Shown in pieces: positions 6,890 to 56,396 of a DNA stretch of 64,000 nucleotides. Both the position numbers and the translations under genes were made by a program. The notes under the pieces are model-generated. The model saw nothing but the letters and a program-made list of their open reading frames with translations. It made no database searches and had not been told where the DNA came from. The first letter of the stretch is position 1; the number at the start of each line of letters is the position of its first letter. The stretch comes from Haladaptatus cibarius D43 (GTDB lineage Archaea; Halobacteriota; Halobacteria; Halobacteriales; Haladaptataceae), in NCBI RefSeq assembly GCF_000710615.1, contig NZ_JDTH01000002.1, positions 302,082 to 366,081 on the forward strand. Direction: 5' to 3'.

Positions 6890-7016
6890 GTCTTCGCGTC
6901 ATCGTTGGCCGAGCGAAACCGGAGAAAATTGCTCCGGTTTCCCGTCGTAGTACGGAAACCTTTTGCGCCCAGTCGTACTGCAAACGCGCAATGACAATGC
7001 GTCCGGGTGTTCGGCA

Positions 7017-8567
7017 ATGACGATGGACGAGCGAATCGACGAACTGCGCGAAAAGCGTAGTGAGGCCGAAAAAGGCGGCGGAGAGGAACGAATCGAAAAA
7101 CAGCACGAGAAGGGAAAGATGACGGCGCGCGAGCGCATCGACTACTTCTTAGACGACGACACCTTCAACGAGTTCGACCAACTGCGAACTCACCGAAGCC
7201 ACAACTTCGGGATGGAAGAAAAGCAAATCGCGGGCGACGGCGTCGTGACCGGCTACGGCGAAGTCAACGGCAGAAAGGTGTTCGTCTTCGCGCACGACTT
7301 CACCGTCTTCGGCGGGAGTCTGGGCGAAGTGTTCGCCGAGAAGGTGACCAAGGTGATGGACAAGGCGATGGAAGTCGGCGCGCCCGTCATCGGCCTGAAC
7401 GACTCCGCCGGAGCGCGGATTCAGGAAGGTGTCGCCTCGCTCGCAGGCTACGCGGACATCTTCCACCGCAATCAACAGGCAAGCGGCGTCATTCCACAGA
7501 TTTCCGCAATCATGGGGCCGTGTGCTGGTGGTGCAGTGTACTCCCCCGCCATCACGGACTTCATCTTCATGGTGAAGGACACGAGCCACATGTTCATCAC
7601 CGGCCCGGACGTCATCGAGACGGTCACGGGCGAGGAAGTCACCTTCGAAGAACTCGGCGGCGCGAAGGCCCACACCGCGGAAAGTGGAGTCGCACACTTC
7701 GCCGAGAACAGCGAGGAAGAGGCGCTGGACGACATCCGGCGACTGCTTTCGTACCTCCCGCAGAACAACGTCGAAGACCCGCCGCGCGTCGAACCGTGGG
7801 ACGACCCCGAACGGCGCGACGAGTCGCTCGAATCGGTCGTACCCGACCAACCGCGGAAACCGTACGACATCACGAAGGTCGTAGACGGCGTCGTGGATGA
7901 GGATTCGTTCTTCGAGGTGCAGGAAGGCTACGCGAAGAACATCGTCGTCGGGTTCGGCCGCCTTGACGGGCGGTCGGTGGGAATCGTGGCGAATCAGCCG
8001 CGCGTCAACGCGGGCACCCTCGACATCGAATCGTCCGAAAAGGGGTCGCGGTTCGTCCGCTTCTGTGATTCGTTTAACATCCCGATTCTGACGTTCGTGG
8101 ACGTGCCCGGGTTCATGCCCGGCACTGACCAAGAACACGGCGGCATCATCCGCCACGGGGCGAAACTGCTGTACGCCTTCTCGGAGGCGTCGGTTCCGCT
8201 CATGACCGTCATCACGCGGAAAGCCTACGGCGGGGCCTACGACGTGATGTCCTCGAAGCACATCGGCGCGGACGTGAACTACGCGTGGCCGACCGCCGAA
8301 ATCGCGGTGATGGGGCCACAGGGCGCGGTCAACGTCCTCTACAGTTCGGAACTCGCGGAGGCCGACGACCCAGAGGCGCGCCGCGAGGAACTCATCGACG
8401 AGTACCGCGAACAGTTCGCCAACCCGTACACCGCCGCCGACCGCGGTTTCGTGGACGACGTTATCGAACCGAAAGAAACCCGCCCGCGACTCATCTCCGA
8501 CCTCGAAATGCTGATGAGCAAACGAACGGCCCAACCCGAAAAGAAACATGGCAACATCCCGCTCTGA
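7017..8567 (+). CDS. pccB: Acyl-CoA carboxylase carboxyltransferase subunit (propionyl/acetyl-CoA carboxylase beta)
   Basis: A 516-residue carboxyltransferase of the biotin-dependent acyl-CoA carboxylases. The N-terminal half has [12 protein letters not shown] and [11 protein letters not shown] (oxyanion-hole regions) and the C-terminal half [14 protein letters not shown] and [11 protein letters not shown]. It moves carboxylate from carboxybiotin to propionyl- or acetyl-CoA; in haloarchaea this feeds methylmalonyl-CoA formation and polyhydroxyalkanoate precursor supply. The start at 7017 ([14 protein letters not shown]) is the usual N-terminus; earlier in-frame ATGs add unrelated residues. 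It overlaps the small subunit gene by 20 bases. The biotin carboxylase subunit gene is not in this window. Confidence 0.9.
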
Positions 8568-34484: not shown

Positions 34485-34742
34485 CTAGGCGGGAACTGCC
34501 TCTCGCCGTGGGACATCGCTCGGCACATCTTCGGCGGCGATTTCGCCGCTCTCGATTGTACCGATTTCCGCACAGTAGTGCAGAAACGTATCTATCGACG
34601 CGACAACGATGCGCGCTTCGACGGTAATCAGTTCGAGTCCGACGATGGCGATGCGCGCCCACAGGTCAATGACGATTCCCTTGTCGAGGATTCTGTCCAG
34701 TACCTCTGCGAAGTTCGAAGTGTTCGGTTCCTCTCGTGTCAT
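34485..34742 (-). CDS. gvpA: Gas vesicle structural protein GvpA (copy 2)
   Basis: An 85-residue GvpA paralogue: [51 protein letters not shown]. Compared with copy 1 there are conservative replacements across the core (V/I, E/L) and a Cys in the HYCAEI helix where copy 1 has Ala. The C-terminal tail is longer. It is transcribed alone, leftward, convergent with the unknown gene. It could be a second wall protein used under different conditions or a minor component. Confidence 0.9.
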   Translation of the reverse strand: MTREEPNTSNFAEVLDRILDKGIVIDLWARIAIVGLELITVEARIVVASIDTFLHYCAEIGTIESGEIAAEDVPSDVPRREAVPA

Positions 34743-34804
34743 TGTTCACCACCCTGCACACGCCCTACGAGACGAGTTGACGTGTACTTTGAGGCCTATC
34801 TGCG

Positions 34805-34818
34805 GGCGATGTATCGCC
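34805..34818 (-). promoter_or_regulatory. Perfect palindrome upstream of gvpA2
   Basis: GGCGAT-GT-ATCGCC is a 6-bp perfect inverted repeat with a two-base spacer, 63 bases before the gvpA2 start in the divergent gvpA2/gvpF region. The layout recalls the palindrome before gvpA1, though the sequences differ. Possible operator. Confidence 0.35.
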
Positions 34819-34876
34819 TTCCGGAGTCCAATGATTTACGTCGAATGAGGCGCGTGCTTGCAGTTTCCGCCACACG

Positions 34877-34886
34877 ACTTATTAAC
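34877..34886 (+). promoter_or_regulatory. TATA box of the gvpF-M operon
   Basis: ACTTATTAAC is about 55 bases before the gvpF ATG at 34938, implying a leader near 30 bases. It faces away from gvpA2. Confidence 0.45.
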
Positions 34887-34937
34887 GCACGCGGCGTCAC
34901 GTCACAGCAAGGGAAAGCGGACGCCCTACTACTAACG

Positions 34938-35564
34938 ATGAGTTCGAACCGATACGTCTACGGAGTTGTCGAAAAGGCCGACTTCGAGTTTGATGCCGAT
35001 GCGGTTGCTGGCGCAGACCGAGTGTATACCGTGGACTACCGGTCGCTTTCCGCGGTCGTCTCCGACATCGACACCACCGACCCCGAACGAACCGACGAGG
35101 ACAGCAAAGCCCACGACGAGGTGCTTCGGCAAGTGCTCGAACACGACGACGTCGGCGCTGTCGTCCCGATGCAGTTCGGCATGGCGTTCAAGGACAACCG
35201 CACGCTGAAAAGTGTCCTCCGAAGCGCGATGCGAGCGTTCAGAAAAGCCCTCCGCGAAGTGGACGGCCACGTCGAACTCGGCGTCAAACTCGTCGCCGAC
35301 GAAGACGCGGATTACTCGCGGGACAGCATCCGTGAGGACGTAGGAGAACGCCTCTCGGCGCTCGCAGAGAGCGAAACGGAAGACGACCTCTTCAGCGATC
35401 GCCTCGTCCTGAATCGCTCGTATCTCGTCGCGATGGACGACCGAGAAGCGTTCGATGACGTAGTCGCCGACGTGCGCGAGGAGTACGACGACCTCACCGT
35501 CCAGTACACTGGCCCGTGGGCACCGTACAACTTCGTGGACATCCACATCGGGGCACAGCGATGA
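34938..35564 (+). CDS. gvpF: Gas vesicle protein GvpF
   Basis: A 208-residue GvpL/GvpF-family protein and first gene of the gvpF-M operon. It begins MSSNRYVYGVVEKADFEFD and ends with the family mark YTGPWAPYNFVDIHI; the middle has VLEHDDVGAVVPMQFGMAF. GvpF is a minor component that can contact GvpA and is needed for nucleation. The next gene starts inside its stop region (4-base overlap). Confidence 0.9.
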   Translation: MSSNRYVYGVVEKADFEFDADAVAGADRVYTVDYRSLSAVVSDIDTTDPERTDEDSKAHDEVLRQVLEHDDVGAVVPMQFGMAFKDNRTLKSVLRSAMRAFRKALREVDGHVELGVKLVADEDADYSRDSIREDVGERLSALAESETEDDLFSDRLVLNRSYLVAMDDREAFDDVVADVREEYDDLTVQYTGPWAPYNFVDIHIGAQR

Positions 35565-35815
35565 TTCTCGTGGACGATTTGCTGTTCAGGCCGCTCGTGT
35601 CCATCGCGGACGTGCTCCACTCGCTGGCAGTGGACGAAATGTACGACGTCGAAGGAGTACAGGACGAACTCAAGGAGACGCACCTGTTGTACGAAATCGG
35701 CGAGTTGTCGCACGAGGAGTACGAACGGAAGAAGGCGACGCTCGAAGAGCGGCTCGAAATCGCGGAAGACGCTCACGAACGATTGCGGAGCGGGAAAGTC
35801 GAGGTAAAACGATAA
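35561..35815 (+). CDS. gvpG: Gas vesicle protein GvpG
   Basis: An 84-residue helical protein: MILVDDLLFRPLVSIADVLH, then VQDELKETHLLYEIGELSHE and EYERKKATLEERLEIAEDAH. This coiled-coil-like pattern is typical of GvpG, an accessory protein that interacts with GvpF and GvpL. Overlaps both neighbours (ATGA with gvpF; TAATG with gvpH). Confidence 0.9.
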   Translation: MILVDDLLFRPLVSIADVLHSLAVDEMYDVEGVQDELKETHLLYEIGELSHEEYERKKATLEERLEIAEDAHERLRSGKVEVKR

Positions 35816-36222
35816 TGGGACTCATCAACCGACTGGCTCGATTGGCGAACGCGCTGGCAGAAGACAGCACGACCAGAACACACACCGGCGAAATCGGTGG
35901 TACCGGCGGGCGAATCAGCTATGCTGTGTCGCTCGGCCCCGCCGAGTCGGAGCGCCCCCGCCAGCGAACGTACCGCCCGAAATATCTGACCGACGTTCGG
36001 AAAGAAAAAGACGACCTCGTCGTTGCAATCGACCTTCCGGGAGTGTCGGAGGACGACCTTTCGGTCACGTTCGACGACGAGACGAACATAGTAGAAATCC
36101 GGGAGGAAGAACGGCCGATAAAACGGCTCGGACTTCGGTGGGAGGACGTCGTCATCGAGAAAGCGACGTACAACAACCAGATACTCGAACTACGAATCGG
36201 GGGGGACACGCAGGATGGATAG
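35815..36222 (+). CDS. gvpH: Gas vesicle protein GvpH (Hsp20-like)
   Basis: A 135-residue protein with a C-terminal alpha-crystallin-like domain: DVRKEKDDLVVAIDLPGVSE, VTFDDETNIVEIREEE and a final beta-strand LELRIGG. In Halobacterium GvpH behaves as a small chaperone-like accessory protein. It overlaps gvpI by 8 bases. Confidence 0.85.
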   Translation: MGLINRLARLANALAEDSTTRTHTGEIGGTGGRISYAVSLGPAESERPRQRTYRPKYLTDVRKEKDDLVVAIDLPGVSEDDLSVTFDDETNIVEIREEERPIKRLGLRWEDVVIEKATYNNQILELRIGGDTQDG

Positions 36223-37003
36223 CGACCGACTCGAATCATTTACGAAGAACGTCCAGTCCGGAATCAGCCGTCTCGAAGCGGCCTTCGATTCGTCGGATTC
36301 GTTCGAAGACGTGTCGGCCGAAGCGACGAAACTATGGGAACTACTGGACGAAGGCGAGGACGTACTGGACGAACTCGACCTGACCGACCTACCGGACATC
36401 GTCGATGCGGGGGACGTGCCGGAGGCTATCGACGTAGAAGACCTACCAGATGCGATTTCGGAGGGTGACCCGAAAGAGGCCATCGACACGATAGGACTCG
36501 TGAGAGCAATCGAACTCCGCGAACTGTGGAATTCGACGGATATGCGGGAACTCTGGCGGGAGGCCCGCGAGTTCGAGGACGCCGTCACCGATTTCACAGG
36601 CGATTCGGAGGGAGACAGCGACGGCAGTGACGGAATGCTGTCGGGGATGGGCACCGACATGGATGTCGGGATGGACGGCCCCGGCATCGACACCGAGATG
36701 GATTCGGAACTGTACCAGTCGAAGATACAGTCGGAACTGCACGACAGCGTCGAATCCTTCCGCGGAAAACTGCTCGAAACCCGCAACAAACTCGCGCAAA
36801 TCAAGAAGGAAAACGAGTCGAAGGGGAACATCGGCCAGCCAAACTCGCGCAACCCGACTGCGTACTCCACGATGGCAGGGTCGCGCCCGGACATGGGGAA
36901 ATCGACGCACTTCTCGACCGTTCCGACGGAGACGCGATACTCCTCGGCCCCGAACTCGAAACGAATCTACGGCAGGCGATTCGAGGAGGAAGACGATGCG
37001 TGA
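36215..37003 (+). CDS. gvpI: GvpI-position protein with long acidic N-terminal region
   Basis: A 262-residue protein where a short basic GvpI (about 110-145 residues in Halobacterium) is expected. Residues 1-195 are acidic and helical, rich in Asp/Glu with DLPD-type repeats (LTDLPDIVDAGDVPEAIDVE, then EDLPDAIS). The last 70 residues are polar and basic (NKLAQIKKENESKGNIGQPN, STVPTETRYSSAPNSKRIYG), a style consistent with GvpI. Identification rests on position between gvpH and gvpJ plus this tail, so the fusion or extension is an interpretation. Confidence 0.65.
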   Translation: MDSDRLESFTKNVQSGISRLEAAFDSSDSFEDVSAEATKLWELLDEGEDVLDELDLTDLPDIVDAGDVPEAIDVEDLPDAISEGDPKEAIDTIGLVRAIELRELWNSTDMRELWREAREFEDAVTDFTGDSEGDSDGSDGMLSGMGTDMDVGMDGPGIDTEMDSELYQSKIQSELHDSVESFRGKLLETRNKLAQIKKENESKGNIGQPNSRNPTAYSTMAGSRPDMGKSTHFSTVPTETRYSSAPNSKRIYGRRFEEEDDA

Positions 37004-37376
37004 AACCGGGCCGACGCGTAGTCAGTCCGACCTCGCGGAAATGCTCGAACTACTGCTGGACAAGGGGGTCGTCATCAACGCCGACATCGTCGTGACGGTC
37101 GGGGAAACCGAACTGCTCGGCGTGAAACTCCGGGCCGCCATCGCGTCGTTCGAGACGGCCGCGCAGTACGGACTCGAATTCCCGGAGGGAACCGACATGG
37201 AACGCGTCAACGAGGCCGCAGGCGTGGAAGAACTCGCCGAGACGGAAACCGTCCCCGTCGAAGCGAGCAGTGACGACTCCGAGGAAGAATCGACAGACAG
37301 CGAGGAAGACGCTGACGAGACAGAAGCCGAGGAAGAAGCCACGCAGACCGCGGAGGCGGAGAATGACGGCGATTGA
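36996..37376 (+). CDS. gvpJ: Gas vesicle protein GvpJ
   Basis: A 126-residue GvpA-family minor protein: SDLAEMLELLLDKGVVINAD, IVVTVGETELLGVKLRAAIA. After the GvpA-like core comes a long very acidic tail (residues ~75-126, runs of Ser/Asp/Glu). GvpJ and GvpM are hydrophobic minor proteins that may seed the vesicle. It overlaps gvpI by 8 and gvpK by 14 bases. Confidence 0.9.
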   Translation: MRETGPTRSQSDLAEMLELLLDKGVVINADIVVTVGETELLGVKLRAAIASFETAAQYGLEFPEGTDMERVNEAAGVEELAETETVPVEASSDDSEEESTDSEEDADETEAEEEATQTAEAENDGD

Positions 37377-37680
37377 GATCGACGAGGACGACGCGGGAAA
37401 AGGACTCATCTCGCTCGTCATCACGGTAGTCGAACTGCTGGTCGATGCGTTGGAGCGTGAGGCGGTTCGGCGAATGGAGTACGACGACCTTTCTCCGGAA
37501 GAAATCGAACGTCTCGGGTCGCAGTTGATGGCGTTGGAGGACGAACTCGAACGCCTCAAAGAGTCCGAAGGAATCGAGCGCGACGTCGAAAACCTTCGGG
37601 GCGATTTGGACGACCTGCTGACGGACGCGCTGGTCGATGTCGCCAACCGCGAACCCGGACTGGAGGGATTCGGTGACTGA
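37363..37680 (+). CDS. gvpK: Gas vesicle protein GvpK
   Basis: A 105-residue GvpK: LISLVITVVELLVDALEREA, VRRMEYDDLSPEEIERLGSQ, then LEDELERLKESEGIERDVEN. The helix pattern matches the family. Accessory protein for gas vesicle assembly, sandwiched with overlaps between gvpJ and gvpL. Confidence 0.9.
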   Translation: MTAIEIDEDDAGKGLISLVITVVELLVDALEREAVRRMEYDDLSPEEIERLGSQLMALEDELERLKESEGIERDVENLRGDLDDLLTDALVDVANREPGLEGFGD

Positions 37681-38473
37681 GCAAGTTGAAGAGTTCGAAG
37701 TCGGGCGCTACCTCTACTGCGTGGTCGCGGTAGGCGAAAACGGCTCGGACGATTCGTTTTCCATGTCGGGAATTGACGGCGAACCCGTAACCGTCCTCAC
37801 CGAAAACGGCGTCGGGGCAGTCGTGCAGGAGTGCGAGTCGCCCTACGACACGGACGACTTGGAGACGGTACGCGACTGGTTGCTGACCCATCAGGAGGTC
37901 GTGGACACCGCGGGACAGACTTTCGGAACGCCGCTTCCGTTCCGTTTCGACACGATTCTCAAAGGCGACGACGAGCGCGTTCGGACGTGGATAGCCGACC
38001 AGCAGGACACGCTCGAAAGTCATCTTGCCGAGTTCGAAGGCCACTGGGAGTATCGCGTCGGCGTGGCGTGGGACGAAGAACGGGTTCGGGACGAACTCGA
38101 ATCCGAGGACGAGGAACTGGCCGACCTGCGCGAACGAATCGACGATTCGGAGGAAGGAACCGCCTTCCTGCTCGAAAAGCAGTACGACACCCGAATCCGT
38201 GACCTTCGACAGGCGCGCAAGGAGTCGCTAACGAACCGCCTTCGTGAGAGCCTCGAACCGCTGGTTCGGGAGTTCGACGTGTTGGATTCGAACAGTGGCG
38301 TTCTCGGCGATGGCGCGTCCGACGAAGTGGTACAGGTCGCGTTCCTCGCGCACGAGGAACGCGAAACCGACATCGGGGAGATGCTGGACGACATCGCGGC
38401 AGACCCGGGTGTCGAAGTGCGGTTTACCGGGCCGTGGCCGCCCTACTCGTTCGCGCCGGAGTTAGAGGCATGA
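37673..38473 (+). CDS. gvpL: Gas vesicle protein GvpL
   Basis: A 266-residue GvpL/F-family protein from the GTG at 37673 that overlaps the gvpK stop. Core: EEFEVGRYLYCVVAVGENGS, QTFGTPLPFRFDTIL, and the final RFTGPWPPYSFAPELEA, parallel to GvpF's GPWAPYNF. A central coiled-coil (ESEDEELADLRERIDDSEEG) is longer than in GvpF. GvpL contacts several accessory Gvp proteins in Halobacterium. Confidence 0.9.
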   Translation: MTEQVEEFEVGRYLYCVVAVGENGSDDSFSMSGIDGEPVTVLTENGVGAVVQECESPYDTDDLETVRDWLLTHQEVVDTAGQTFGTPLPFRFDTILKGDDERVRTWIADQQDTLESHLAEFEGHWEYRVGVAWDEERVRDELESEDEELADLRERIDDSEEGTAFLLEKQYDTRIRDLRQARKESLTNRLRESLEPLVREFDVLDSNSGVLGDGASDEVVQVAFLAHEERETDIGEMLDDIAADPGVEVRFTGPWPPYSFAPELEA

Positions 38474-51326: not shown

Positions 51327-53795
51327 CTATGCCGCCGTGGTCGTCGTCGGTTGCTGTACTGTCGTACCTGGTTGTCGTACAATCGTCTGATTGGCTGTTT
51401 GCTGCGCCGTTATGGTCTGTGCCGTCTGTTCTGTTCCCGGTTGCGTCGTCCCCGCAGTCGTCGCACCGGGCGTTCTCGGAACGGTCGTTTGCACACCACG
51501 CTCCTGTTCGATACACGCTTGCACGTCGTCCTGTTCGACCGACGCGACAACCTGTCCGTTCGCGTCGAACAGTGTCGCGTTGAGGAAGACGAAACCCTCC
51601 GCGCCGAAATCTGTGGTCGTGTTCGTCCAGGTGTAGTTCCCGTCCGGCGTTTGTTCGAAGTCGTTCGCCGAGACGTTTTGTGTGACCTGTGCACCCACTT
51701 CTGGATTCGAACTATCGATTAACAGCGCGACCAGTTGCAAGTCCCGCGGTTGCGTCGTGTTTACCGTGACTTCGGTGCAGTTCAAATTCGCTTCGAGCGG
51801 TTCGGCGGGCGGGGTTGGTGTCGTAGTCGTCGTGACTGCGGGTGTCGTCGTGATATCCGTGGTAGTTGTAACGTTCGGTGTGGTGGTCACGGTGTCAGTC
51901 GCTGTGGCGTTAGGTGTCCGTGTCGCGGGAGTGGTAGTCGGCGGAGTCACCGGAGTCGTCCCCGGCGTCGTCGCGTTCGGTGTCGTCTGCGGCGATTGCG
52001 TGGTCGTGGTGTTCTGCGTGGTCGTCGCAATTGGCGGCAGTGTTGTCGTTTCCGATTCCGGTGTCGTCGTAACTGCCGAAATCCGACTCGCTTTGTTCTG
52101 TGCGAGCGAGCGAACCGTCTGCGGTTGCACGTTCTCTCCTGTGGCGATTCGCTCGCTCGCCCGTTCGGTTCCCTCGATTGCGGCCTGTCGAATCTGGCTC
52201 GTGTCGTTCACGTTCTGCTGGGCGGCGGCCCGTGCCGCCCCGGATGCGGCACCCGCGGAAGCGGCCTGCACCTGTTCGACGGTTGCGTCCTGAATTTGCG
52301 TGATTCCGCCGCTTGCCGAACCCAGCGCGGCGGATCGAATTTGCACGAGATTCGCCCGCTGGCTTTGAGAAATCGCGCCGTTCGCACCGCCCCGCGTTGC
52401 AGCTTGTACCTGCCGAACGTCGGCTTGCTGGCGCTGGCTCGCCGAAACGCCGCCCGTCGCGGAGCCTCGTGCGGCAGCTTGGACTTGCGTAATGCTCGCC
52501 TGTTGGCTCTGGGTTACCGCTCCCGCCGCCGCACCGACGCACGCGAACTGAATCTGACGGATTCGCACTGTTTGAACTTGCGTGATACCACCGCTCGCGG
52601 CACCCCTCGCGGCGGCCTGAATCTGTCGTCCCTCGACAATCTGCTTCTGGACGGCACCCTGAACGGCCCCCTGTGCCGACCCCTGCGCGACGACCTGAAT
52701 TTGGACGATGTTTACGGTTTGAATCTGGACGATACTCAGCGCGCCCGCCGCCGCGCCTCGACAGGCCGACTGCACCTGTCTCACGGTTGCCTGCTGAATC
52801 TGCGTGATTCCGCCTTTCGCCGCGCCATGTGCTGCGGTCTGAATCTGGAGAATGCTAGCTTGCTGGAATTGGGAAATCGCCCCCGCCGCGGCACCGCGCG
52901 TCGCGGCCTGTATCTGTCGAATATCGACGCGCTGAATCTGCGTCACCCCGCCTTTGGCCGCACCCAGCGCGGCGACTTGCACTTGTTTCACGTTCGCGCG
53001 TTGGGTCTGTAATGCGCCCGTCGCGGCACCTTGCGCGGCGAACTGCATCTGTCTGATTTCGATTCGCTGGCGCTGGTCGAGCGCGCCGAAGGCCGCGCCC
53101 TGTGCGGCCTCCTGAATCTGTGAAATGCTCACCTGCTGATTTTGTACTGCACCCCTCACGGCACCTGTTCCGGCCCCTCGCGCTGCGATTTGTAGCTGTT
53201 CGACGGTCGCTCGCTGACTCTGCGCCACCGCACCGTGTCCGGCACCGAACGCGGCGGCTTGTATTTGCGTCGCGTCCGCTTGCTGTGCCTGTGTTATCGT
53301 CCCAGCGGTTGCTCCGGTGGTCGCAACCTGAATTTGCCTAATAGAGGTGGTTTGGCTCTGAAGCAGGGTTCCGTGCGCCGCACCGCGGGCGGCGGCCTGC
53401 ACCTGCGAAACGCTTGCTTGCTGGCGCTGGGAAACAGCTTGCACGGCACCCTGTGCGACTGCCTGTCGCTGTTGCTGATTAACCGAAACCCCTTGTCTCT
53501 GTGCTACCGAGGCACCCTGCAACGCGCCGCGAGCGGCGGCCTGCTCGCGGTCTGAGAGCTGTCGTTGCTGGACGTCTGCTCGCTGAACGGCGTTCTCGGG
53601 AACGGAACTGTCCGCTCGGCTAGTTGTCCGTGTTTCCAGCGGTAACACGGTCGGCCCGTTCACCGTCGGCCGCTCGTTGACCGATTCAGTCGCTCCAGTT
53701 GGCGACTGTGCCGAGGGAACCACGGAAACGAAACCAGTAGTCGAGAGCGTCAGGACGAAAACGAACACGAGTGTCGTTTGCGTAAATCGCCTCAT
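51327..53795 (-). CDS. Very large secreted protein with ~19 tandem 23-residue Gln/Ala/Gly repeats
   Basis: An 822-residue protein. Residues 1-30 are a Sec-type signal (MRRFTQTTLVFVFVLTLSTT then GFVSVV). About residues 70-530 hold some 19 repeats of a 23-residue unit such as TQIQRVDIRQIQAATRGAAA plus GAI, with conserved Q-x-Q, Q(I/V)QxAA and GAAxG(A/G)(I/V). Then follow a Thr/Pro-rich stalk (~575-680; many TTTP, NTTTT sequons for glycosylation), a beta-sandwich-like region (LEANLNCTEVTVNTTQPRDL to CIEQERG, two Cys) and a Thr/Gln-rich tail without membrane anchor. No family is recognised. It is likely extracellular and could polymerise or adhere; that is inference. Confidence 0.8.
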   Translation of the reverse strand: MRRFTQTTLVFVFVLTLSTTGFVSVVPSAQSPTGATESVNERPTVNGPTVLPLETRTTSRADSSVPENAVQRADVQQRQLSDREQAAARGALQGASVAQRQGVSVNQQQRQAVAQGAVQAVSQRQQASVSQVQAAARGAAHGTLLQSQTTSIRQIQVATTGATAGTITQAQQADATQIQAAAFGAGHGAVAQSQRATVEQLQIAARGAGTGAVRGAVQNQQVSISQIQEAAQGAAFGALDQRQRIEIRQMQFAAQGAATGALQTQRANVKQVQVAALGAAKGGVTQIQRVDIRQIQAATRGAAAGAISQFQQASILQIQTAAHGAAKGGITQIQQATVRQVQSACRGAAAGALSIVQIQTVNIVQIQVVAQGSAQGAVQGAVQKQIVEGRQIQAAARGAASGGITQVQTVRIRQIQFACVGAAAGAVTQSQQASITQVQAAARGSATGGVSASQRQQADVRQVQAATRGGANGAISQSQRANLVQIRSAALGSASGGITQIQDATVEQVQAASAGAASGAARAAAQQNVNDTSQIRQAAIEGTERASERIATGENVQPQTVRSLAQNKASRISAVTTTPESETTTLPPIATTTQNTTTTQSPQTTPNATTPGTTPVTPPTTTPATRTPNATATDTVTTTPNVTTTTDITTTPAVTTTTTPTPPAEPLEANLNCTEVTVNTTQPRDLQLVALLIDSSNPEVGAQVTQNVSANDFEQTPDGNYTWTNTTTDFGAEGFVFLNATLFDANGQVVASVEQDDVQACIEQERGVQTTVPRTPGATTAGTTQPGTEQTAQTITAQQTANQTIVRQPGTTVQQPTTTTAA

Positions 53796-54110
53796 AATCA
53801 CGTGACTGACGGTAGATTCCAATTTTAATCTTCGACACCGTTAATTCCGTTCTCGGAACCCATCGGCCCGTTGCCGACAGTACACGTGGCGGTTTTCTTC
53901 GGACATCATTGGCAACCGAACCGAACCGTGAGGTAATCGTCGTTTCGATGGTTACGTTCGGACGAGATTTCCTCCACCCAAATATATTCGGTGATACAGT
54001 TATTAGAAACAAAAGTAGACGCGACGATGATTTCAGTTCGACTGCCAGCTTTCTAGGTGTCTAGATTCACCATTCTTTATGCAGGGTCATCAACTGGAGA
54101 TGAGCGTCGC
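53796..54110. other. 315-bp divergent intergenic region
   Basis: Holds the promoters of the large secreted protein (leftward) and the winged-helix gene (rightward; TTCTTTATGC near 54072 is a possible TATA box for it). CAAATATATTCGG near 53968 is another AT-rich box. No repeat or gene seen. Confidence 0.5.
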
Positions 54111-54533: not shown

Positions 54534-54692
54534 TCGTTTATCGCGTTCCGTCCCGCATCGACCCCAAAGACGCTTCTCAAGACCTCCCTTTCCGCCTTTC
54601 CCTCGCTCTTTGCGACCGTTTTTCCGCCCGTCGAAATTTTTGCCGCGTGCGAAAGGGAAAATGGTTTGAAATCACCCCACGGACACGCAACC

Positions 54693-56396
54693 ATGAAAGT
54701 CCGCATCGGCGCGGGGGCAACCGAGGAGGAAGCCTCAGCTATCGCCAGCGCACTCGCCCAGCACGTCGGGAGCGAGGTGAACGTGTACGTCGGGGACGCA
54801 GACGAACCGACCGTTACGTGGAGCGACACCGAGGAACCAATTGAAGACGATTTGGGCCCGACGGAGCGCGAGAAGGAACTGTGGAAGGAAATCGAGGAAA
54901 TCGAGGCAGGTGGCCCCGAGAAGTACAAAGAACGCCTCGCCGAAAAAGGGAAACTGTTCGTCCGCGACCGACTCGACCTCTGGTTCGGCGACGACGGCCT
55001 GAAGTTCGAGGACGGCCGATTTGCCGAGTTCGACGCGGAAGACAAACTTCCAGCGGACGGACTCCTCACAGGCGCGGCGGAGTTCGAAGGCCGAGACGTT
55101 CACTTCATGGCGAACGACTTCACGGTCAAAGCCGGGAGCATGGCCGCGAAAGGCGTCGAGAAGTTCCTCCGGATGCAACAGCGCGCACTCCAGAGCGGCA
55201 ATCCCGTCCTCTACCTGATGGACTCTTCGGGCGGCCGAATCGACCAACAAACCGGATTTTTCGCCAACCGCGAAGGCATCGGAAAATACTACTACAACCA
55301 CTCGATGCTTTCGGGGCGCGTCCCACAGATTTGTGTCCTGTACGGGCCATGTATCGCAGGCGCGGCGTACACGCCGATGTTCGCCGATTTCACCATCATG
55401 GTCGAAGAGATGTCCGCGATGGCCATCGCCTCGCCGCGAATGGTGAAGATGGTAACCGGCGAGGACATCAGCATGCAAGACCTCGGTGGGGCGCAGATGC
55501 ACGCCGAACACTCGGGCAGTGCCGACCTCGTCGCCCGCGACGAGGAACACGCCCGCGAACTCGTCTCCGACCTCATCACGTACCTTCCGAACAAGGCACA
55601 CGAGAAACCGCCACGGAGCGAACCGAAGGCCCCGAAACTGTCGCCGAACGGTATCGACGAGGTCATTCCGCAGAGTCCGAACCGGGCTTACGACATGACC
55701 GACCTGATAGAGCGCGTCGTGGACGCGGATTCGTACTTCGAACTCCGGCCCGACTTCGGCAAGGAAATCATCACTGCCTTCGCCAAAATCGACGGTCGGC
55801 CGGTCGGCATCGTGGCCAATCAACCAGCACAGCGCTCGGGCGCGATTTTCCCGGACGCCGCCGAAAAGGCCGCGGAGTTCATCTGGAAATGTGACGCCTT
55901 CGAGGTGCCACTGCTTTACCTCTGTGACACGCCGGGGTTCATGGCCGGGTCGCAGGTCGAGAAGGACGCGATTTTGGAGAAAGGGAAGAAGATGATTTAC
56001 GCCACGTCTTCCGCGACGGTTCCGAAGCAGTCGGTCGTCGTCCGGAAGGCCTACGGTGCGGGCATCTACGCCATGTCCGGCCCGGCCTACGATCCACAGA
56101 GCGTCATCGCGCTCCCGTCGGGTGAAATCGGCATCATGGGGCCGGAAGCCGCAATCAACGCGGTCTACGCGAACAAGCTGAACGCCATCGAGGACGAAGA
56201 AGAGCGCGCCCAGCGCGAACAGGAACTCCGCGAGGAGTACCGAGAGGACATCGACGCACACCGGATGGCGAGCGAGATGGTCATCGACGACATCGTCCCG
56301 CCGAGCACTCTGCGCAAGGAACTGGTCAATCGCTTCGAGTTCTACGCGGACATGGAAAAGAGTCTGCCGGACAAAAAGCACGGAACGATTCTGTAA
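54693..56396 (+). CDS. Acyl-CoA carboxylase carboxyltransferase with N-terminal PccX-like segment
   Basis: A 567-residue protein. Residues 1-45 (KVRIGAGATEEEASAIASAL and HVGSEVNVYVGDADEP) mirror the helical start of the separate PccX at 8548 ([14 protein letters not shown]). After an acidic linker (~45-75) comes a complete carboxyltransferase: MDSSGGRIDQQTGFFANREG, GPCIAGAAYTPMFADFTIMV, LLYLCDTPGFMAGSQVEKDA and RKAYGAGIYAMSGPAYDP. The active-site blocks differ from pccB (SSGGRID, CDTPGFM), pointing to another acyl-CoA such as a methylcrotonyl-type substrate. No biotin carboxylase is adjacent. Confidence 0.85.
   Translation: MKVRIGAGATEEEASAIASALAQHVGSEVNVYVGDADEPTVTWSDTEEPIEDDLGPTEREKELWKEIEEIEAGGPEKYKERLAEKGKLFVRDRLDLWFGDDGLKFEDGRFAEFDAEDKLPADGLLTGAAEFEGRDVHFMANDFTVKAGSMAAKGVEKFLRMQQRALQSGNPVLYLMDSSGGRIDQQTGFFANREGIGKYYYNHSMLSGRVPQICVLYGPCIAGAAYTPMFADFTIMVEEMSAMAIASPRMVKMVTGEDISMQDLGGAQMHAEHSGSADLVARDEEHARELVSDLITYLPNKAHEKPPRSEPKAPKLSPNGIDEVIPQSPNRAYDMTDLIERVVDADSYFELRPDFGKEIITAFAKIDGRPVGIVANQPAQRSGAIFPDAAEKAAEFIWKCDAFEVPLLYLCDTPGFMAGSQVEKDAILEKGKKMIYATSSATVPKQSVVVRKAYGAGIYAMSGPAYDPQSVIALPSGEIGIMGPEAAINAVYANKLNAIEDEEERAQREQELREEYREDIDAHRMASEMVIDDIVPPSTLRKELVNRFEFYADMEKSLPDKKHGTIL

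Follow-up and report, generated by a model that had tools for sequence, protein, structure and literature searches.

What does a haloarchaeal gene encode when its product carries a long array of tandem 23-residue repeats, and does the regular period make this protein a relative of the curlin amyloids? The gene lies in the window that we analyzed, a 64,000-nucleotide stretch of the genome of Haladaptatus cibarius D43 (contig NZ_JDTH01000002.1, positions 302,082 to 366,081 of the forward strand); unprefixed coordinates below are counted from its first letter. A preliminary description, made from the letters of the window alone, had suggested that the product could be a new type of surface fibre, adhesin or matrix protein, with a layout that recalls that of curlin repeats.

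Gene layout and the 23-residue repeat

The repeat-protein gene, here called P0001, runs on the minus strand from an ATG at 53795 to a stop codon that ends at 51327. The preliminary description had delimited this ORF correctly and gave no strand. Among named organisms, H. litoreus gives the best match, 90% identical over its best segment, followed by H. pallidirubidus (75%). Nearly all orthologs have an uninterrupted ORF; in one Haladaptatus genome it is split over two frames (L014 and L015; G007:C28:412688-414915), through either a frameshift or an error of assembly. The features of the locus are the following:

53840..53851, minus strand: operator-like element AACGGAATTAAC, 56 nt upstream of the ATG, kept in all orthologs examined
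53823..53830, minus strand: TATA-like GATTAAAA, about 28-35 nt upstream of the ATG, putative promoter
51327..53795, minus strand: repeat-protein gene P0001, 822 aa (ORF and translation), with orthologs in 9 of the 9 Haladaptatus genomes searched
53709..53795, minus strand: Sec-type signal peptide, residues 1-29 (MRRFTQTTLVFVFVLTLSTTGFVSVVPSA), read from the sequence; hydrophobic N-terminus kept in orthologs
53436..53552, minus strand: predicted pair of N-terminal helices that caps the array, residues 82-120 (AlphaFold2 helices at 4-22 and 29-42 in fragment numbering), conserved in 60 homologs
52227..53426, minus strand: 17 strict 23-aa repeats, residues 124-523 (anchors and periodicity), predicted as one alpha-helix each (AlphaFold2 pLDDT 94.5, first 6 repeats)
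52089..52226, minus strand: residues 524-569, degenerate repeats at the C-terminal end of the array, helical in the full-length model (pLDDT roughly 60-85)
51825..52076, minus strand: Thr-rich stalk with N-glycosylation sequons, residues about 574-657 (sequence; low pLDDT)
51495..51809, minus strand: predicted C-terminal beta domain with two Cys, residues about 663-767 (AlphaFold2 pLDDT about 91-96, seven strands)
51330..51494, minus strand: Thr/Gln-rich C-terminal tail without membrane anchor, residues 768-822 (sequence; low pLDDT)

The signal peptide, the Thr-rich stalk and a further domain had all been recognized in the preliminary description; the Thr/Gln tail had gone unmentioned. Signal peptides were judged by eye in the sequences, and both P0001 and its orthologs have an N-terminal export signal. 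P0001 has no C-terminal hydrophobic segment that could serve as a surface anchor and, lacking one, may simply be released from the cell. For the C-terminal beta domain no significant match was found in the PDB. TEAD-like Foldseek matches of this domain were not significant, and a match to 4HBT_3C was weak and under the cut-off.

The repeat itself is well supported statistically. Residues 23 positions apart are identical at a rate of 0.345 over residues 101-540, against 0.133 +/- 0.015 (maximum 0.185) in 2000 shuffled sequences. Seventeen strict units can be placed on a G-x-x-x-G anchor, with spacings of 22-26 residues, mostly 23. Degenerate helical units flank the strict array at both ends, so that the count of about 19 repeats given previously is a fair one. 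Across the family, 844 distinct units yield the consensus x-Q-x-V-[STND]-V-x-Q-[IV]-Q-x-A-A-x-G-A-A-x-G-A-[LVI]-x-Q, in which the anchor Gly pair is invariant by construction; an alignment of 60 proteins likewise shows no variation in the columns of the GxxxG pairs. Unit spacings in the family cluster at 23, 26 and 31, the commonest insertions being +3 and +8 residues. A 46-residue alternation of two helices (GGxTQxQ / GAxSQxQ), plausible by eye, was rejected on a parity test (p = 0.65). Elsewhere in the window, a 24-bp tandem repeat of 2.5 copies (300-360), which codes for a Gly/Asp/Ser-rich segment, lies near the start of the ORF at 282-1178.

Predicted fold and likeness to known repeat proteins

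We modelled residues 79-262 with AlphaFold2, together with 60 homologs taken from the class. The model has high scores (pLDDT 94.5, pTM 0.92) and contains eight helices and no strands, with one helix for each of the first 6 repeats. The tandem helix-loop units are regularly packed in the model of this fragment, as in an alpha-solenoid. Structure prediction, which the preliminary description had suggested as a check, therefore returned a regular fold and not disorder. A 3-residue insertion makes one helix longer (residues 120-140 of the fragment). The full-length model has helices at both ends of the array and is poor in the middle (pLDDT <30); because of this, the regularity of a rod over all 17 repeats is an extrapolation.

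Independent signs in the sequence also back the helical prediction, namely an N-cap pattern, the insertion lengths and an arc on the helical wheel. Within the unit, S/T/N/D at -10 together with hydrophobic residues at -11 and -6 makes up a helix N-cap signature. The five least conserved positions (-8, -4, -1, +3 and +7) fall on a single 80-degree arc of the helical wheel, for which the chance probability is about 0.002 when contiguous arcs are counted. A Fourier analysis of the conservation profile did not separate 100 from 160 degrees (p = 0.085). From the model and the sequence pattern, each 23-residue unit is predicted to comprise a single alpha-helix, about 17 residues long, and a short loop. 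A near-invariant Gly/Ala face (A-A-x-G-A-A-x-G) and the fixed Gln would allow tight packing of successive helices, and the five variable positions of each helix would form an exposed stripe.

No match for the array was found in Pfam, NCBIfam or the PDB sequences, and Foldseek likewise did not point clearly to any known repeat family. Of the solved structures, the nearest are the designed helical-repeat proteins DHR18 (5cwi) and DHR8 (5cwf), which like the array are built of tandem helix-loop repeats. These top Foldseek matches are weak (E 0.009-0.04), TM-scores are only 0.3-0.4, and no homology is implied. Designed DHR repeats have two helices per repeat, as opposed to one in the P0001 unit. 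Natural alpha-solenoids (HEAT, ARM, TPR and PPR) share with the array short helices that are joined by loops into an extended structure, but the P0001 array is predicted to have one helix per sequence repeat and a Gly/Ala-packed frame, and has no Pfam match. Adhesin stalks of the antigen I/II A-region type are Ala-rich helical rods, attached to the wall or surface, with long heptad-type helices. The array can be likened to them in being Ala-rich, whereas its helices would be short and broken every 23 residues.

Like the curlins CsgA and CsgB (PF07012), P0001 has a signal for secretion, a period of about 23, regularly placed Gln and several tandem repeats. Unlike them, its array is predicted to be helical, is far longer and is accompanied by a stalk and an extra domain. 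PF07012 (Curlin_rpt) did not match P0001, its orthologs or its paralog, and nothing in the genome exceeded the cut-off. Comparison with E. coli CsgA and CsgB by hhalign gave E 0.86 and 0.69, with a probability below 0.1%. The curlin kernel is Q-X10-Q (PMC10192328). This kernel is absent from the family consensus, which has conserved Gln at -13, -7, -5 and +8; the residues 11 positions past the first three (-2, +4 and +6) are Ala, Gly and Leu/Val. A beta-solenoid is not supported by the all-alpha model of the fragment, and the likeness to an amyloid curlin layout that had been noted for the repeats is not borne out.

Distribution and genomic setting of the family, and a putative promoter element

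A profile search with the N-terminal portion of the array found the family in 109 of 391 genomes of the class (about 28%) and in 35 of 86 haloarchaeal genera. It is present in 103 of 125 genomes of one taxonomic family (93 of 111 among good genomes), probably the Natrialbaceae. In a phylum-wide sample of 393 genomes, all matches fell within one same order. No published description of the repeat family was found in the literature. The repeat family is thus uncatalogued, real and conserved, and it is widespread in haloarchaea and not unique to the H. cibarius genome. Accordingly, the "new type" of the preliminary description stands for the sequence family and not in the sense of uniqueness. A viral origin was considered and dropped: the family profile found no member in viral contigs, there was no PHROG match, and Foldseek searches of viral structures gave weak matches only, many of them to tape-measure proteins.

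The N-terminal helix pair and the array are retained across members, while the rest of the protein varies. Among 31 members, the C-terminal region contains DUF7282 in 23, CARDB in 14, a beta-helix in 4 and TSP3 in 3, and a membrane-like (TM-like) C-terminal segment occurs in 6.

The neighbours of the gene in Haladaptatus are housekeeping genes. The window also holds two diverged acyl-CoA carboxylase carboxyltransferase genes (6963-8567 and 54666-56396), as well as two GvpL/GvpF gas-vesicle genes (34578-38473). These two are separated by an ORF of 262 aa (36215-37003) for which Pfam gave no match. In family f4 the repeat gene has a constant position, with bioY-ecfA on one side and two small conserved genes on the other (most of the loci L061, L065-L067, L075-L079 and L081-L114), and at two further loci (L072 and L073) it adjoins bioF/bioD. 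BioYMN of Nab. magadii is Nmag_0886-0888 (PMC3403918). Because the f4 locus is fixed at bioY-ecfA, the repeat gene of Nab. magadii, if present, may lie beside these genes.

A Haladaptatus paralog, P0002 (L004:6653-8908), is built of like repeats that are rich in Asn. The profiles of the two proteins match with 98% probability (E 1e-14), and their coding repeats are about 40% identical. In some species the Asn-rich paralogs (L016, L018 and L019) start with a twin-arginine Tat-type signal, where P0001 has a Sec-type one.

The two genes also have a putative promoter element in common. The 12-mer AACGKAATTAAC has exactly two copies in the 3.93-Mb genome, one upstream of each paralog (the copy of the Asn-rich paralog is at G000:C6:174505-174516, plus strand); about 0.3 matches would be expected by chance in the genome (a hand estimate from base composition). 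Both copies are followed by a TATA-like GRTTRAAA, and the 9-nt spacing is fixed in most orthologs and in the paralog. Every Haladaptatus ortholog examined retains the element, as does a further genus of the family. As the coding repeats are down to about 40% identity, its retention suggests constraint. At the level of sequence, the sharing suggests a regulator common to both paralogs, although it could also stem from common ancestry. Because the element is common to both, P0001 and the Asn-rich paralog are probably expressed together. A Bat-type regulator (PAS/GAF/BAT/HTH_10; L004:4321-6180, plus strand) is encoded immediately upstream of the Asn-rich paralog, in the same orientation, and is a candidate regulator of both repeat genes.

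Selection on the array and its possible function

Among Haladaptatus orthologs, pN/pS is 0.12 at the conserved frame positions, which are under strong purifying selection, and 0.43 at the face positions, for which no positive selection is shown. Orthologous repeats match mostly one to one (first 8 repeats compared), and the array has therefore not been recently expanded in Haladaptatus.

We consider it probable, with moderate confidence, that P0001 is an exported, rigid helical-repeat rod that serves as a surface or matrix scaffold or as an adhesin. Export is predicted because of the hydrophobic signal sequences, the Thr-rich stalk and the Tat-type signals of some paralogs, and a surface setting because DUF7282 and CARDB domains and TM-like ends occur in family members. 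The rod would be borne on the Thr-rich, probably glycosylated stalk, beside the small beta domain; in relatives, DUF7282, CARDB or beta-helix domains, and sometimes a membrane anchor, take the place of that end. Outside the cell the rod may act as a rigid scaffold or adhesin, with its exposed stripes making contacts. It would be a single-gene system, apparently without an assembly apparatus. The earlier view of a secreted protein with a stalk, of surface or matrix type and belonging to no known family, is thereby supported.

A rod that is a sorbent or receptor and not structural, its stripe binding a polymer such as extracellular DNA, an acidic polysaccharide or an S-layer glycan, is the foremost alternative, though we regard it as unlikely. 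The arrays of Haladaptatus carry a strong positive net charge (+10 to +26), which is unusual in a haloarchaeal protein, and face positions vary between repeats while each is more alike among orthologs than across repeats (for instance, 0.55 versus 0.10 at +3). However, the lack of positive selection at the face positions argues against it, as does the charge of the array, which is not conserved: the paralog is at -12, and in other families the majority of members are acidic or close to neutral. For the same reason, DNA binding by a basic array was dropped as a general explanation.

It is still less probable that the array is a disordered, low-complexity protective protein of the LEA or hydrophilin kind whose helicity is conditional. 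The array is indeed Ala/Gly/Gln-rich and of low complexity, and AlphaFold2 can over-predict helices in such sequences, but a pTM of 0.92 requires defined packing and not isolated helices, and frame positions are strictly conserved family-wide. The confidently predicted fold does not point to disorder in isolation, and a signal peptide and stalk are ill-suited to a cytoplasmic desiccation protein.

A role in biotin capture seems very improbable. Homologs of bioY and ecfA adjoin the gene in nearly all f4 loci, and bioF/bioD in two others, but the f4 arrangement is one inherited locus, counts once and does not occur in Haladaptatus, where the adjacent genes encode FBPase and a subunit of an acyl-CoA carboxyltransferase. 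Most improbable of all is a curlin-like functional amyloid of 23-residue strand-turn-strand repeats, a beta-solenoid with Gln ladders: the period, the fixed Gln and a paralog motif (NQNxNVNVxQNAA) that resembles CsgA by eye are outweighed by the confident all-helical prediction, the profile and Gln-spacing results given above and the lack of curli-type assembly genes among the neighbours examined.

The rigid extracellular rod remains our preferred reading, and it can tentatively be extended. Possibly, the family is an uncatalogued archaeal solenoid of single-helix, 23-residue, Gly/Ala-packed units that forms rigid extracellular rods with exchangeable C-terminal domains, represented in Haladaptatus by two paralogs (one Arg/Gln-rich, one Asn-rich) under one dedicated operator. 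A helical-repeat surface-type protein is in itself ordinary; the repeat, the details of the fold and the spread are new. With its single helix, invariant frame and variable stripe, the predicted natural unit also resembles the binding scaffolds that protein designers make. Archaeal surface and matrix proteins beyond pili and S-layers are poorly known, and the family, with its confidently predicted fold and shared upstream element, provides a defined and testable candidate.
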